A stretch of DNA of 47,733 nucleotides from Alphaproteobacteria bacterium (GTDB taxonomy: Bacteria; Pseudomonadota; Alphaproteobacteria; UBA3830). The stretch lies in NCBI GenBank assembly GCA_015062335.1, contig SUUU01000005.1, forward strand, positions 1 to 47,733. Reading direction: 5' to 3'. The notes under the pieces were generated by a model. That model searched no databases, was not told the DNA's origin, and was given only the letters and a program-made list of their open reading frames with translations. Positions 13,852 through 18,888 of the stretch are shown in pieces. Every line of letters starts with the position of its first letter. The stretch's first letter is position 1. A program made the translations under genes and the position numbers.

Positions 13852-14646
13852 TTATTGTTGCGTCATTAATCTGATAGTTAATTTATCTTTATAATCACCT
13901 TGCATTTTAAGTTTTTGCCCGGGATTTACCCGTAATTCAATACGGGCTTCAGATTTATCCGCCGATATCTTAAAGCTGTTGTCGTATTCAGAAATTGATT
14001 TACCATCTGCGACCACACTATAATTAATGCTATCCGGTCTTCCACTATTTTTTATATCTCTCTTCATACAAAAACCATTTTCAGAAACAATGTAAGCAAC
14101 CGTATCTTTCAACACATTAAAACTACAACTAACAATCTGATGTTGTGGTGTCACCATAGTTTTATCATCTATCCAAGAAATCGTACCAAAATCAACTTTG
14201 CGAGTATTCACATAAATCGAAACATATGGATCTATCTTAAATTTAATTTTATCCCACTTCCCACGCCAATTTTTATATATCCCCAAGTCACACTCAACGA
14301 AGAATATCTCATTTAATAAATCTTTATACTCCACTTCATAATCGACTTCCTTCTCAACGCCTGCATCATCAATTGGCAGCATTTTTATTATAAATTTCAA
14401 ATTTCCGTTTCCGGTTTTTATTATTGGTCCTTTAATTTGCACTCTAAACTGACGAATTACGGCATCACTTGCTTCCTCTTTTACTTCAAAAATATGATTC
14501 ACATCCGGAGTTACCAGAGTAACAGTGGCTGCATCATTAGAATACAAACAAAACAACGAATGCGCTGTACATATCAAAAACAAAACGTAAAAATTAATCG
14601 CTGTTTTGACAAACCAATGATCCAAGTTGAATGATTTCTTCAGCAT
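13852..14646 (-). CDS. Putative fimbrial tip/minor subunit of the chaperone-usher locus
   Basis: A 264-residue exported protein. After a polar start comes a hydrophobic export segment (about residues 15-36, FVKTAINFYVLFLICTAHSL), then a beta-rich domain. The C-terminus (LKMQGDYKDKLTIRL) resembles the GxYxDxxTVxL ending of pilin domains that are completed by donor-strand exchange. It is the last gene of the chaperone-usher-subunit series. The ATG at 14646 is preferred over one seven codons upstream because AAGGAG lies 7 bases before it; it overlaps the usher 3' end by 53 bases in another frame. I do not recognise a specific family. Assignment as tip adhesin rests on position, secretion signal, size and the ending motif. 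Confidence 0.6.
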   Translation of the reverse strand: MLKKSFNLDHWFVKTAINFYVLFLICTAHSLFCLYSNDAATVTLVTPDVNHIFEVKEEASDAVIRQFRVQIKGPIIKTGNGNLKFIIKMLPIDDAGVEKEVDYEVEYKDLLNEIFFVECDLGIYKNWRGKWDKIKFKIDPYVSIYVNTRKVDFGTISWIDDKTMVTPQHQIVSCSFNVLKDTVAYIVSENGFCMKRDIKNSGRPDSINYSVVADGKSISEYDNSFKISADKSEARIELRVNPGQKLKMQGDYKDKLTIRLMTQQ

Positions 14647-17227
14647 TTTTCGGCTCCTTAATTTCAATATGAATATCTTTGATACCCTCTACATTTAAGC
14701 TTAGCTTATACTTACCTGGCCGCAGCTCAGTTATAATAAACTCTCCATCTTCATTGGTAAAAAATATCGATGGTTTTATATCCGGATTATCCTGATGTAA
14801 AGCATATCCCGTAATTTGCTGGAATGGCTCTCCATTTTCATCGATTATTATACCCTGCGCTGCTAAAGTACCTTCGGCTACGAGATCTTCTACAAATCCG
14901 CGTTTATATTCTCCATATGCAGAAATTGTATCCTGTTTTATATCTACACGATTTTTAAATTTTGTTAAATCCAAGCGTGCTGACGTATACTGATTCCTGT
15001 ACACAGGAACAACTGCGCCGCCACCTAAGAATCCAGATTTAGTTGGATGCCCTATAAATTGAATAGTTTCGTTACTTAATGCCTTTTTAGGTGTAACAAT
15101 AACAAAGCCACCATCTGAATAATTACTGTTAGAAATCCCATAGCGACCATCAGCAAAATATAATGCTGATTCCACGCCTGCTGTGATGGTTTGATAATTC
15201 AAGCTGCTTCGAGAATATCCAAAATTACTTTTCAAGATAGAATTAGTATAATCAGCCTTCACATCCATTTCTTTTGATGAAGAATTTTGCTTTGCGGAAA
15301 CTTCATACCACAACCCTATATCTTTCAGATGTTGATCGATTGATATATATGAACTTCTTGAAGCATCTGATTTGGTCATCCCTGAACGCAAGTTAACATC
15401 ATTCTTAAATGACAAAGAACAATACAGACTGATTGATTTGTCCTTTTGCGCTTTCGTTCCATCTGATTTTTCAAAACTTAGATTTACGTTGGCACCGCTG
15501 AACCAATCATTATTCATTTGAAAGTATTTTGCTATACCAATGGACTGATGGCGATTACTTTCTCCATTATGAAATTTTCGCCTTGAAAAGTTGGCATGAA
15601 AATTTGTTGATAATAACCCATCAATATATATTCCCCACGTAGTCGTCGTGTTTTTACCCTTAACATTTTCTTCTTGTTTTAATATCGTCTTGGAATATTC
15701 CAAGCTTTTAGCGACCGCATAAGGTTTAAAAAAATTATCGGACCTTTCGAGTGATGCTGCTGCTCTTACAGCAACGGACTCTCCGACCTTGACTGACGGA
15801 GTGTCGTATTTTGCATAATAAACGTTTCCTTTTATTCTTTCTAATTCATTTTTGTAATCACTTTGAGCATATTTAATATCAAACGTCCCCAAGGTATTAC
15901 CATGACGTATTTCATAAGAATTCGTATATCCTGCTTTATTGCGAAGCATCCCGAATCCTAGCTCCGTAGAAAATAATAATCCGTATTTTAGTGTCGCAGA
16001 TAAAACCGGGTTATGCTTGTCGTATCTTCCTTTTTGAGCATTTCGAACCTCAGGATATCCGTAAGTTCCATCAAGTGTAAATTTACCTTTTGGTATAAAC
16101 GCACTTTCATAAAAATAGCTCTCATCAATATATTGTTCGCGTCCGGTATCATCGATAATTTTAATTCTAATATTATTCGTACCGTTGTTAAACGCGATAT
16201 CGTCAAATGTATAAGTTCCCGGGGCAACATTGGTTTTAGTCCTGATCAAATTGCCGTTAAAATACACTTCAACCGTACTTTTTCGTAATAATGTAACTTG
16301 TATAGGAGCGTTTATGTTGTCAACTTTTTCTCTGGAAACATCCTTATAAATATTTAATCCCCAAACTCTCGGAGGACTTTGATAACTTAGTGTGCGACTA
16401 AATACGTCTCCTAACCTAAACATCAAATCATGCTCCGGCCAATCATAAACTAATGCCGTATAATCTCGAACAAATTTCCCTTTATCTCTAGATAAAGAAG
16501 AATGCTCATAAGATACTTCTCCCTCTACGCATACCCCCCACAAATTAACTGCTGGACTCAATAAAAGATGCTGTTGAGTGTAACTCGAGTAAGACCTATG
16601 CCATGTTTCAGCCGCCCTAATATTGACAAATGCGCTAATGTTTGCAGGATGGGCACTTACCGGATAACTTTCTTTGCTCGATATTCTCCTCCCTAAACTT
16701 TGCGTTTTTTTCTTTTCCACCGGAAGCGAAATTTCTACTTGCAACGTCAATCTATTTAATTTTGTCGCCATATTCAGCTTATTGAGCTTATCAAATTCTA
16801 TAAAACCATCACTATCCTTATACTTATCCATGACATTAATGTCAGAATCTTTCAAAAATCTTTGTAACAGTTTCTTTAATGGTGCGACTTGAATTCTATT
16901 GTTTTCCCCAACAAAAACCGGAGCTTCTCCAGCTTGATCTCCATCTACCAGAACAGAACAATCCAACAAAATATCTTTTTCTGATTCAGCATCACCAAAA
17001 ATTTGTCGGTATAAATCTTCGTCTTCTTCATATGCAAAATCTGATTCATCCAATCCTTCAATTTTTATTTCTTTATCCGGATGAACCTCTTCGTACTCAG
17101 AATTAACGTTATCTACTTCACCATTTTTTGAAACATTATCCGAAGCATATACACCTCCGACAACGATCATTTCACAGATAAAAAAACTGAGAAGAAAAAT
17201 AATAAAGGTTGTCATTTTTCTTCTCAT
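14594..17227 (-). CDS. Outer-membrane fimbrial usher
   Basis: Forms the outer-membrane pore through which pilins are polymerised and exported. The 877-residue protein has a signal peptide (about 1-29), then an unusual acidic linker (about 38-88, many Glu/Asp). An N-terminal domain follows (about 88-170, ILLDCSVLVDGDQAGEAPVF), then a beta-barrel. The barrel is interrupted by the plug-like domain at about 308-385 with STVEVYFNGNLIRTKTNVAP, GTYTFDDI and a GTNNIRIKIIDDTGR segment. A C-terminal domain (about 797-877) with GEFIITELRPGKYKLSL ends it. Compared with the classical FimD layout it is complete. It lies 9 bases downstream of the chaperone gene. The subclade (archaic, alpha or other) needs a tree. 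Confidence 0.9.
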   Translation of the reverse strand: MRRKMTTFIIFLLSFFICEMIVVGGVYASDNVSKNGEVDNVNSEYEEVHPDKEIKIEGLDESDFAYEEDEDLYRQIFGDAESEKDILLDCSVLVDGDQAGEAPVFVGENNRIQVAPLKKLLQRFLKDSDINVMDKYKDSDGFIEFDKLNKLNMATKLNRLTLQVEISLPVEKKKTQSLGRRISSKESYPVSAHPANISAFVNIRAAETWHRSYSSYTQQHLLLSPAVNLWGVCVEGEVSYEHSSLSRDKGKFVRDYTALVYDWPEHDLMFRLGDVFSRTLSYQSPPRVWGLNIYKDVSREKVDNINAPIQVTLLRKSTVEVYFNGNLIRTKTNVAPGTYTFDDIAFNNGTNNIRIKIIDDTGREQYIDESYFYESAFIPKGKFTLDGTYGYPEVRNAQKGRYDKHNPVLSATLKYGLLFSTELGFGMLRNKAGYTNSYEIRHGNTLGTFDIKYAQSDYKNELERIKGNVYYAKYDTPSVKVGESVAVRAAASLERSDNFFKPYAVAKSLEYSKTILKQEENVKGKNTTTTWGIYIDGLLSTNFHANFSRRKFHNGESNRHQSIGIAKYFQMNNDWFSGANVNLSFEKSDGTKAQKDKSISLYCSLSFKNDVNLRSGMTKSDASRSSYISIDQHLKDIGLWYEVSAKQNSSSKEMDVKADYTNSILKSNFGYSRSSLNYQTITAGVESALYFADGRYGISNSNYSDGGFVIVTPKKALSNETIQFIGHPTKSGFLGGGAVVPVYRNQYTSARLDLTKFKNRVDIKQDTISAYGEYKRGFVEDLVAEGTLAAQGIIIDENGEPFQQITGYALHQDNPDIKPSIFFTNEDGEFIITELRPGKYKLSLNVEGIKDIHIEIKEPKNAEEIIQLGSLVCQNSD

Positions 17228-17236
17228 TAATTCACT

Positions 17237-18277
17237 TCATCTTTTACTTGTTTTATCATTTGATGATGAACGGCTTTCTGCTTTCTTTCTCATATATACT
17301 CGATCATTTCCTGACATAATCACGGTATCAAGATCCTCCTTACTGATGAGCTCCTTGATGGATTTTCCCTCGCAAACCAGATCTGACTGTCTGATCTCTT
17401 GCCTCGTATTCCCATCATTGTGTAACACAATACTTTGCTCATTTACCGAAACAACCCTGACTTTCGGCTTAGCATTTTTCGGCGTGATGTATAGAGAACT
17501 CCAAATCTCATACTTAACATTAACTGATGCATTCTTCTGAGTTCTTTGAGCCTTTTTCGCCGTACTTATACCAAATTGAGAAAAACTTACTCTCATCGCT
17601 ATTTCTCTATCAGGAATTTTCCCGTGAAACCTTAACTTTATACTCCTTTGAGTCTTCGGAGGGATAATAATTTGTTTAGGATAAATGTCTATACAATTGC
17701 ACAGCCACTCAAAATTTGCGAACAGCTTATATTTCTCAGCAGCCCGCGAGTCATCTTTGATTTTCATTAGCTCCTTTGCATGTATAAAAACCTTTTCTTC
17801 GCCATCTCCATGCAGACAAACCCATCCACCTTTTGGATCACTAGTCAAGCTCTTCCACTCACTTACACTCAAAAAGAGATCTCCTCCATTTTTTCGTTGC
17901 AAGCGAATTTTTACATCACCTTTCTGATTATTTTGTAACTTTTTCACTTCCTGCACATCTACAAATATAATTTTTCCATTTTTATCATAAAGGCAGATCC
18001 GTCCGTTATTTCTGAATCGATTTCGCAGTTCTTTTAATTCCTTGATACTCATTAAAATATCTTTTCCGTTTTTATCCTGCAATCTAATCCATAACCCTAA
18101 TTCAAAGGCAAGTAAACTATCGCTTGTATTTGTTATATGATATTGGAATGTATTTTCATCTTCCACCACCCAAGTGTACACAAATGGAACAATCTGCATG
18201 GAATTTAACTCTGAAAAACAAGGCACTAAAACCAACAATAAGCTTAAAATTTTAATAATATTTGACATTTTATTCAT
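17237..18277 (-). CDS. Periplasmic fimbrial chaperone (PapD-like) with an internal four-repeat insertion
   Basis: Binds unfolded pilins in the periplasm and delivers them to the usher. Signal peptide about 1-27. The first immunoglobulin-like domain begins at about residue 28 with FQYHITNTSDSLLAFEL, a chaperone strand pair. It resumes at about 182 with LCNCIDIYPKQIIIPPKTQR and REIAMRVSFSQFGIS, equivalent to the PxxxxLxPgxxxxVR and ExxyRl segments. The second domain starts near 258 with IWSSLYITPKNAKPKVRVV and has HNDGNTRQE. Between residues 63 and 180 four tandem repeats of about 30 residues interrupt domain one. Total length is 346 residues, against about 230-250 for usual chaperones, and the excess is nearly all the insertion. 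The tail is Ser/Lys-rich. First gene of the minus-strand fimbrial unit. Confidence 0.82.
   Translation of the reverse strand: MNKMSNIIKILSLLLVLVPCFSELNSMQIVPFVYTWVVEDENTFQYHITNTSDSLLAFELGLWIRLQDKNGKDILMSIKELKELRNRFRNNGRICLYDKNGKIIFVDVQEVKKLQNNQKGDVKIRLQRKNGGDLFLSVSEWKSLTSDPKGGWVCLHGDGEEKVFIHAKELMKIKDDSRAAEKYKLFANFEWLCNCIDIYPKQIIIPPKTQRSIKLRFHGKIPDREIAMRVSFSQFGISTAKKAQRTQKNASVNVKYEIWSSLYITPKNAKPKVRVVSVNEQSIVLHNDGNTRQEIRQSDLVCEGKSIKELISKEDLDTVIMSGNDRVYMRKKAESRSSSNDKTSKR
17738..18091 (-). repeat. Four tandem ~30-residue repeats inside the fimbrial chaperone
   Basis: Repeats at protein residues about 63-92, 93-121, 122-151 and 152-180. Each has the pattern hydrophobic-x-Ile/Cys-Arg/Cys-Leu, a turn (DKNG, DKNG, RKNG, GDGE), a hydrophobic strand (DILMS, IIFVD, DLFLS, KVFIH), then ELK/EVK/EWK/ELM-x-L and a Gly/Asn-rich linker. 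They look like strand-turn-strand-helix units. The fourth is the most divergent. The DNA copies are diverged, so this is an old protein repeat and not a recent DNA duplication. Confidence 0.8.
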
Positions 18278-18368: not shown

Positions 18369-18397
18369 TTGCCATTTGCTTAATTGTATCTTAATAT
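18369..18397 (+). promoter_or_regulatory. Probable promoter of the pilin gene
   Basis: TTGCCA (five of six), a 17-base spacer, then TAATAT (four of six), about 30 bases before the pilin ATG. It lies in the roughly 150-base AT-rich gap between the divergent pilin and chaperone genes, so both fimbrial units could be controlled from here. Confidence 0.55.
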
Positions 18398-18426
18398 TTC
18401 CCCGTAGAGAGAAGTTATGTCGAAAT

Positions 18427-18888
18427 ATGAAAAAAATATTTTCTTTATTGTTGATAGTTTTTTGCCTGTATTCTTATGCAGACAAATCGGCTGAAGTAGA
18501 AGTAGAATCAAAGGTAGATGCGCACTTAAATATTGTTCGTCTCGATTCCGGTATCGTGGATTTGTTTCGTCCTAGTCCTGTCAGATTTGCTATATTTTCA
18601 AATATTGATAAAAATATAAATTTAGAGGCAGATTCTGACTTTAAGGCCACCGACGTTAATAACAATCAGCATTACATTGATTATCAACTAGCTGTCAATG
18701 TGCGAGGAACGGATCACACAATAAACGAAACCAATAAAAAAATTGAAATAGAGCGTGATAAGTTCGATGATAATAAAAGATTAGATATTGATGTTACAGC
18801 GACTCCTGTCGACTTAAATAAAATAACGACGTTGCCGGCAGGAATTTACAAAGGAAAATATACTTTGAAAATATCGGCTGTCAATTAA
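18427..18888 (+). CDS. Putative major fimbrial subunit (pilin)
   Basis: A 153-residue exported protein with a classical signal peptide (MKKIFSLLLIVFCLYSYA, cleavage after about residue 18) and a mature beta-rich domain of about 135 residues. The ending LPAGIYKGKYTLKISAVN resembles the final strand of chaperone-usher pilins. The mature part has no Cys, so it lacks the disulphide of type-1 pilins and is closer in style to CS1-like or other non-classical subunits. The ATG at 18427 is chosen because it starts the signal peptide; GAGAGAAG lies 12 bases upstream, a weak spacing. Divergent from the chaperone gene, and it ends 11 bases from the convergent mrcA stop. Function inferred mainly from context. 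Confidence 0.65.
   Translation: MKKIFSLLLIVFCLYSYADKSAEVEVESKVDAHLNIVRLDSGIVDLFRPSPVRFAIFSNIDKNINLEADSDFKATDVNNNQHYIDYQLAVNVRGTDHTINETNKKIEIERDKFDDNKRLDIDVTATPVDLNKITTLPAGIYKGKYTLKISAVN

Follow-up and report, generated by a model that had tools for sequence, protein, structure and literature searches.

The fimbrial chaperone gene described here carries an array of four strand-strand-helix (ββα) units, each of about 30 residues, which fill residues 62-176 within the first immunoglobulin-type domain. The array originated from the chaperone's own C1-D1' hairpin. Repeat 1 is this native hairpin and, as read from the sequence, the extra material corresponds to units 2-4 with their helical joints, about residues 91-176 (window 17750-18007; the window is the whole stretch of 47,733 nucleotides that was analysed). 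The array is restricted to a single lineage, represented so far by one metagenome-assembled genome (MAG).

Organization of the chaperone gene

The minus strand at 17237-18277 is one uninterrupted reading frame of 346 aa. Its product begins with a hydrophobic leader, followed by a first domain of immunoglobulin type, which the repeats split, and by a second domain. The features of the gene are as follows.

17240..18277, minus strand: CfaA-like fimbrial chaperone, 346 aa; stop codon at 17237-17239
18197..18277, minus strand: putative signal peptide region (periplasmic export), residues 1-27; hydrophobic N-terminal helix at residues 3-26 in the model
18008..18094, minus strand: unit R1, residues 62-90; end of strand C1, DKNG turn, strand D1' and helix; native, not inserted
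17918..18007, minus strand: unit R2, residues 91-120; extra ββα copy containing Cys95; 0/5000 shuffles against R1
17828..17917, minus strand: unit R3, residues 121-150; extra ββα copy, nearest to R1 (IRLQ.KNG.D)
17750..17827, minus strand: unit R4, residues 151-176; degenerate extra copy, nearest to R2; Cys154 in the register of Cys95
17696..17749, minus strand: closing helix, residues 177-194; matches the place of the second helix in the D1' extension of the sister species G006
17240..17695, minus strand: remainder of domain 1 from strand D1 (IYPKQIIIPPK..), then domain 2; 46-53% identity to most relatives in the genus

Residues 1-27 probably direct the protein to the periplasm, as the modelled helix suggests. 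In the AlphaFold2 model most framework residues in the ranges 51-80 and 201-330 have a pLDDT of about 90 or higher; from strand D1 onward values are mostly 80-97, except in the 241-250 loop and the tail. When the model was compared with solved structures by Foldseek, CfaA was the best match (4ncd/4y2o/6k73), followed by CsuC, Caf1M, EcpB and FimC. The fold matches, among them CfaA, CsuC, Caf1M, FimC and PapD, had E-values down to 3.6e-8. An immunoglobulin framework is thus present on both sides of the repeats, in agreement with the first-pass annotation, which had proposed a fimbrial chaperone interrupted in this way. That annotation had also read each repeat as strand, turn, strand and helix. 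This pattern is predicted four times in the model, but with low confidence for units 2-4 (insert pLDDT 43-50), and the fold of these units is therefore not established.

The protein is a CfaA-like non-classical chaperone

A profile built from 17 relatives matched CfaA (6k73, 3.8e-9), EcpB (4.4e-6) and CsuC (2.4e-4) among PDB sequences. In the Pfam search the window chaperone alone gave no match to PF00345 (PapD_N), and four relatives in the order and class passed the gathering score of this family. NCBIfam TcfA matched the window chaperone weakly (2.8e-5, residues 194-343), far under the family cutoff. Judged by its fold matches, the protein has the two immunoglobulin-like domains of a PapD-like periplasmic chaperone, the first of PapD_N type. 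The gene context, with an usher downstream and a pilin-like gene divergent upstream, is that of such chaperones.

Class 5/FGA chaperones have a long F1-G1 loop (about 20 residues), shifted donor-strand residues and a short interdomain linker; in the window chaperone the loop region is modelled with low confidence (residues 243-246). Their D1' insertion (CfaA type), located between C1 and D1 of domain 1, occurs at the same site in the window chaperone and is much larger there. The disulfide-closed C2-D2' insertion of this class is absent, domain 2 having a single cysteine, Cys302 (the G006 chaperone contains no cysteine anywhere). As D1' is present but the C2-D2' disulfide is not, the protein is classed as a CfaA-like (CfaA/EcpB/CsuC-like) variant of the non-classical fimbrial chaperones and not as a member of Class 5.

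CfaA of the CFA/I Class 5 fimbriae (PDB 4ncd, 4y2o, 6k73; PMC4133393), the best match by both profile and fold, shares with the window chaperone the location of the D1' insertion and a gene cluster in which usher, pilin and tip genes also lie. The alignment of CfaA to the family profile starts immediately behind D1', at chain residue 56. In CfaA, D1' is a short acidic segment, whereas in the window chaperone it is a ββα array with about 114 residues more, and the CfaA C2-D2' disulfide (C163-C172) has no equivalent. The alternative/archaic chaperones EcpB (5dfk) and CsuC (5d6h, 6fqa) (PMC4654587) have the same non-classical fold and their C1-D1 hairpin aligns, but it is short and carries no repeats in place of the array.

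Units 2-4 are copies of the native C1-D1' hairpin

The four units begin at residues 62-64, about 91, 121 and 151, with a spacing of 30, 30 and 29 residues. Their pairwise similarity was assessed by local alignment scores against 5000 shuffles. The R1-R2 score was 61 (19.4±4.3 in shuffles), and those of R1-R3, R2-R3 and R2-R4 were 60, 51 and 44, respectively, none of the four being reached in any shuffle (0/5000). R4 is the degenerate unit: its alignment to R1 was equalled in 21/5000 shuffles and that to R3 was not significant. Block R1R2 aligned to block R3R4 with a score of 89 (shuffle mean 22.7, maximum 51). The motif IRLQ is common to R1 and R3, and G-x-(I/V)-C-L to R2 and R4. The simplest history is a one-unit duplication (R1 to R1R2) followed by a two-unit duplication (R1R2 to R1R2R3R4).

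Units 2-4 are about 50% identical to unit 1 in amino acids and 53-57% in DNA. In-frame DNA identity between true copies is 53-57% (R1-R2, 57%) compared with 28±5% for random in-frame pairs. Tandem Repeats Finder detected no repeat at the DNA level, because the copies are too diverged. This divergence also bears on the possibility that the MAG contig was wrongly assembled or binned. The long form is indeed seen in one genome only, but copies differing by 43-47% in DNA cannot be created by mis-joined reads; in addition, the reading frame is unbroken, the composition fits, synteny with relatives is kept and G006 has a shorter extension. An artefact is thus most improbable.

Relatives without the insert read 'LAFEISVFRRKLDKNGKDILEKD-TESFLLRPSQIIIPP' and repeat 1 of the window chaperone is IRLQDKNGKDIL... 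In these uninserted relatives the hairpin, e.g. 'ISVFRRKLDKNGKDIL', runs within a few residues into strand D1 ('FLLRPSQIIIPP'). Unit R1 aligns to 16/16 relatives; R65 and G71 are invariant and D73 and L75 nearly so (17 rows). Since the hairpin occurs in insert-free relatives, repeat 1 is the native C1-D1' hairpin. Compared directly with the uninserted family hairpin, R2-R4 show only marginal similarity (for R2/R3, p about 0.015 to 0.3 by unit and reference set). Units 2-4 are tied to the family through unit 1, which aligns with the family and resembles units 2 and 3 beyond chance. This likeness, together with the alignment of block 1-2 to block 3-4, indicates that units 2-4 arose from the chaperone itself by in-frame tandem copying. 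The first-pass annotation had described four repeats inserted at about residue 62. The four units of 29-30 residues and their beyond-chance similarity hold, but only three are extra, and the additional material begins at about residue 91 and extends to about 176.

The array is not a foreign domain

A module brought in from elsewhere, as the annotation implied, would be a domain inserted into the chaperone to recognize peptidoglycan, a ligand of the host or calcium. The DKNG turns loosely resemble EF-hand loops (centrin, E = 0.3-1.1) and four cysteines lie in the insert region. Against this, unit 1 is native to the family, the GC content of the insert (0.364) is that of the gene (0.356), and no EF-hand or peptidoglycan-binding Pfam match was obtained at E<=1. 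The suggested peptidoglycan recognition finds no support. The insert alone had no homologue above noise in 41 genomes of the family and no match in phages, plasmids, Pfam, PHROGs or PDB sequences; nor did the repeat give a meaningful profile match to the EF-hand or any other known repeat family in Pfam, PHROGs or PDB sequences. A foreign origin is accordingly very improbable. The EF-hand-like resemblance and the matches of the insert to centrin, exosome MTR3 and Sas-4 are at chance level.

Distribution of the extension among relatives

Realignment to the profile of all chaperone-like frames from the genus, the family, the order (50 genomes), the class (385) and the phylum (399) gave 49 distinct frames, including two weak second frames. 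Between C1 and D1, 47/49 homologous frames have 39-42 residues, G006 has 64 and the window chaperone 155; the insertion point is profile position 73. The four-unit architecture is absent from the 48 other homologous frames, and the full array is seen in one genome (a MAG) only. Literature searches for repeats in chaperones, with subscription literature partly outside their reach, yielded nothing relevant and no description of such an architecture. The view that it is new among chaperones is thus upheld. Among named relatives, the closest are MAGs of uncultured proteobacteria, several of which carry the label rumen or omasum.

The window genome (G000) and its sister species G006 form a clade with support of 99/99. 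The G006 chaperone (contig CALXQM010000014.1, L002/L035) is 46% identical to the window chaperone and has the LWIR-QDKNG-DIL hairpin in common with it. Both proteins are extended by helices at this site, but the G006 chaperone lacks the ββα copies. Its extension of 23 residues forms two helices after the hairpin in the model (pLDDT about 95; second helix 83-98). Window helix 177-194 corresponds by position to this second helix, with weak sequence similarity. Its placement makes likely the order of a hairpin, then a hairpin with two helices, and then amplification of the hairpin-helix between them. As relatives carry a single hairpin-plus-helix, the array of this one gut bacterium elaborates a known protein in a lineage-specific way and is not a foreign domain.

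A second variable site of the family lies in the F1-G1 loop region (profile position 126), where L008, L012 and L013 (from G007, G033 and G027) have a separate extension of 18-21 residues. It does not occur together with the D1' array.

The fimbrial gene cluster

The usher, pilin-like and minor-subunit-like genes beside the chaperone are intact in the window.

14594..17227, minus strand: outer-membrane usher, 877 aa, intact; PF16967 TcfC E-set, 1.4e-6
13852..14667, minus strand: minor subunit or tip-like protein, following the usher gene (downstream) and overlapping it as listed; its start codon is uncertain
18427..18888, plus strand: pilin-like gene, divergent from the chaperone; aligns with the G006 and G001 pilin-like proteins at 16-27% identity

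The window usher is 48-54% identical to the three ushers of relatives compared with it, and the usher of a relative matches PF00577 (Usher) at 1.9e-13. The minor-subunit-like gene occupies the same place in the G006 and G001 clusters (26-29% identity). It had no match to solved structures, and neither its profile nor the usher profile matched PDB sequences. The gene at 18427..18888 had no family match and is considered pilin-like by position and pattern. A hit of this protein (window 18376-18888) to NCBIfam GapS4b (E 0.0012, 17.7 bits, cutoff 300) is probably due to chance.

Gene order in the G006 cluster is as in the window. In G001 the chaperone, usher and minor-subunit-like genes follow the window order and several pilin-like genes are divergent upstream. 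Two adjoining peptide deformylase genes lie beside the fimbrial cluster of G006 (L059:7799-9055), the second with an extra leader-like N-terminus resembling the start of the adjacent pilin-like gene. In G001 (L060:154-4477), three small pilin-like genes alternate with two genes for coiled-coil-like proteins of 420-433 aa on the strand opposite the chaperone.

In the window usher, the N-terminal region that precedes the conserved E(D/E)LYRQ-FG motif (17027-17227) exceeds that of every relative compared in length. Counted from the first Met it has 67 residues, and it is strongly acidic, with a charge of -8 between start and motif. No clear change in the usher tails matched the array, and tail length varies among relatives; hence the tail was not taken as proof.

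Possible role of the array

In CfaA, mutation of D1' (T44A/E45A/E46A) left the CfaA/CfaB ratio at 0.67, compared with 0.66 in the wild type, and piliation was delayed and lowered to 43%; an interaction of D1' with pilin or usher was proposed (PMC4133393). For EcpB and CsuC, hydrophobic usher-binding residues were proposed on the G1F1C1D1 sheet of domain 1 (PMC4654587). By analogy with the CfaA D1' insertion (PMC4133393), an added surface for usher or pilin, already suggested in the first-pass annotation, is possible and is the favoured reading. In the ancestor common with the sister species, the solvent-exposed C1-D1' hairpin of domain 1 would have gained helices. In the window lineage the hairpin-plus-helix unit was then amplified by in-frame tandem duplication into the ββα array, the pilin-holding framework staying intact. 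The homology, the site of the array, the origin of its repeats and their restriction to one lineage are established. The array lies at the C1-D1 end of the GFCD sheet, where CfaA has its functionally important D1', and not at donor strand G1, which grips the pilins. There it could provide an enlarged contact surface at the assembly step, and we infer from the CfaA analogy that the contact would chiefly be with the usher; such contact would speed the hand-over of chaperone-subunit complexes or make it specific. This role as an assembly-side surface, most likely for the usher, is put forward tentatively, as a reading that falls somewhat short of an even chance. The strand topology puts the C1-D1 end at a distance from the usher patch that was proposed for EcpB/CsuC (PMC4654587); the array may therefore contact a different surface or a different region of the usher.

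The main rival is a tolerated, near-neutral expansion, in which replication slippage or recombination duplicated an exposed hairpin. The array would then serve no purpose of its own and simply leave the chaperone unharmed. The exposed loop away from strand G1, the restriction to a single lineage, the degenerate state of R4, the low confidence with which the insert is modelled and the reduced genome (about 0.86 Mb) are all consistent with it. Between true copies pN/pS is about 0.4/0.7, a ratio below 1, compared with about 0.5/0.5 for out-of-register controls; with dS near saturation and pairs not independent, this is only a rough sign of constraint. The hydrophobic pattern is nevertheless kept despite near-saturating synonymous change, and the sister species retains an extension at the site that is confidently folded in its model. 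Selection on the repeats is thus suggested by a rough, sequence-based measure. The intact frame alone proves nothing in this respect, since domain 2 lies downstream. Near-neutral expansion appears a real but lesser prospect than the assembly contact.

A module for pilin specificity or folding, touching the bound subunit, e.g. as a cage beside the pilin groove, would suit the location of the array in domain 1 and the fast divergence of the pilin-like proteins of the clusters (16-27% identity). It is unlikely, as the CfaA D1' mutant keeps its chaperone-pilin stoichiometry (PMC4133393) and C1-D1 and donor strand G1 are not neighbours within the GFCD sheet. Somewhat less doubtful is a selected docking arm, built of repeats through amplification of the chaperone's own C1-D1' hairpin. 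Such an arm would add a contact to the usher, or to neighbouring chaperones with possible disulfide links (Cys95/Cys154/Cys193/Cys195), and would alter subunit hand-over.

Cys95, Cys154, Cys193 and Cys195 (window 17692-17995) lie in or just after the array, Cys95 and Cys154 in the same R2/R4 register. Relatives in the genus have few or no cysteines in the mature chain. Periplasmic disulfides among the four residues are possible.

Chaperones vary very little in size and fold, as the length of C1-D1 shows, and the array multiplies exactly the element that affects assembly in CfaA and not pilin binding. The lineage carrying the array is therefore a natural experiment on the role of D1'. With a short hairpin, a two-helix extension and a four-unit array on a supported clade, the family clearly illustrates how a repeat array arises from part of its own host domain.
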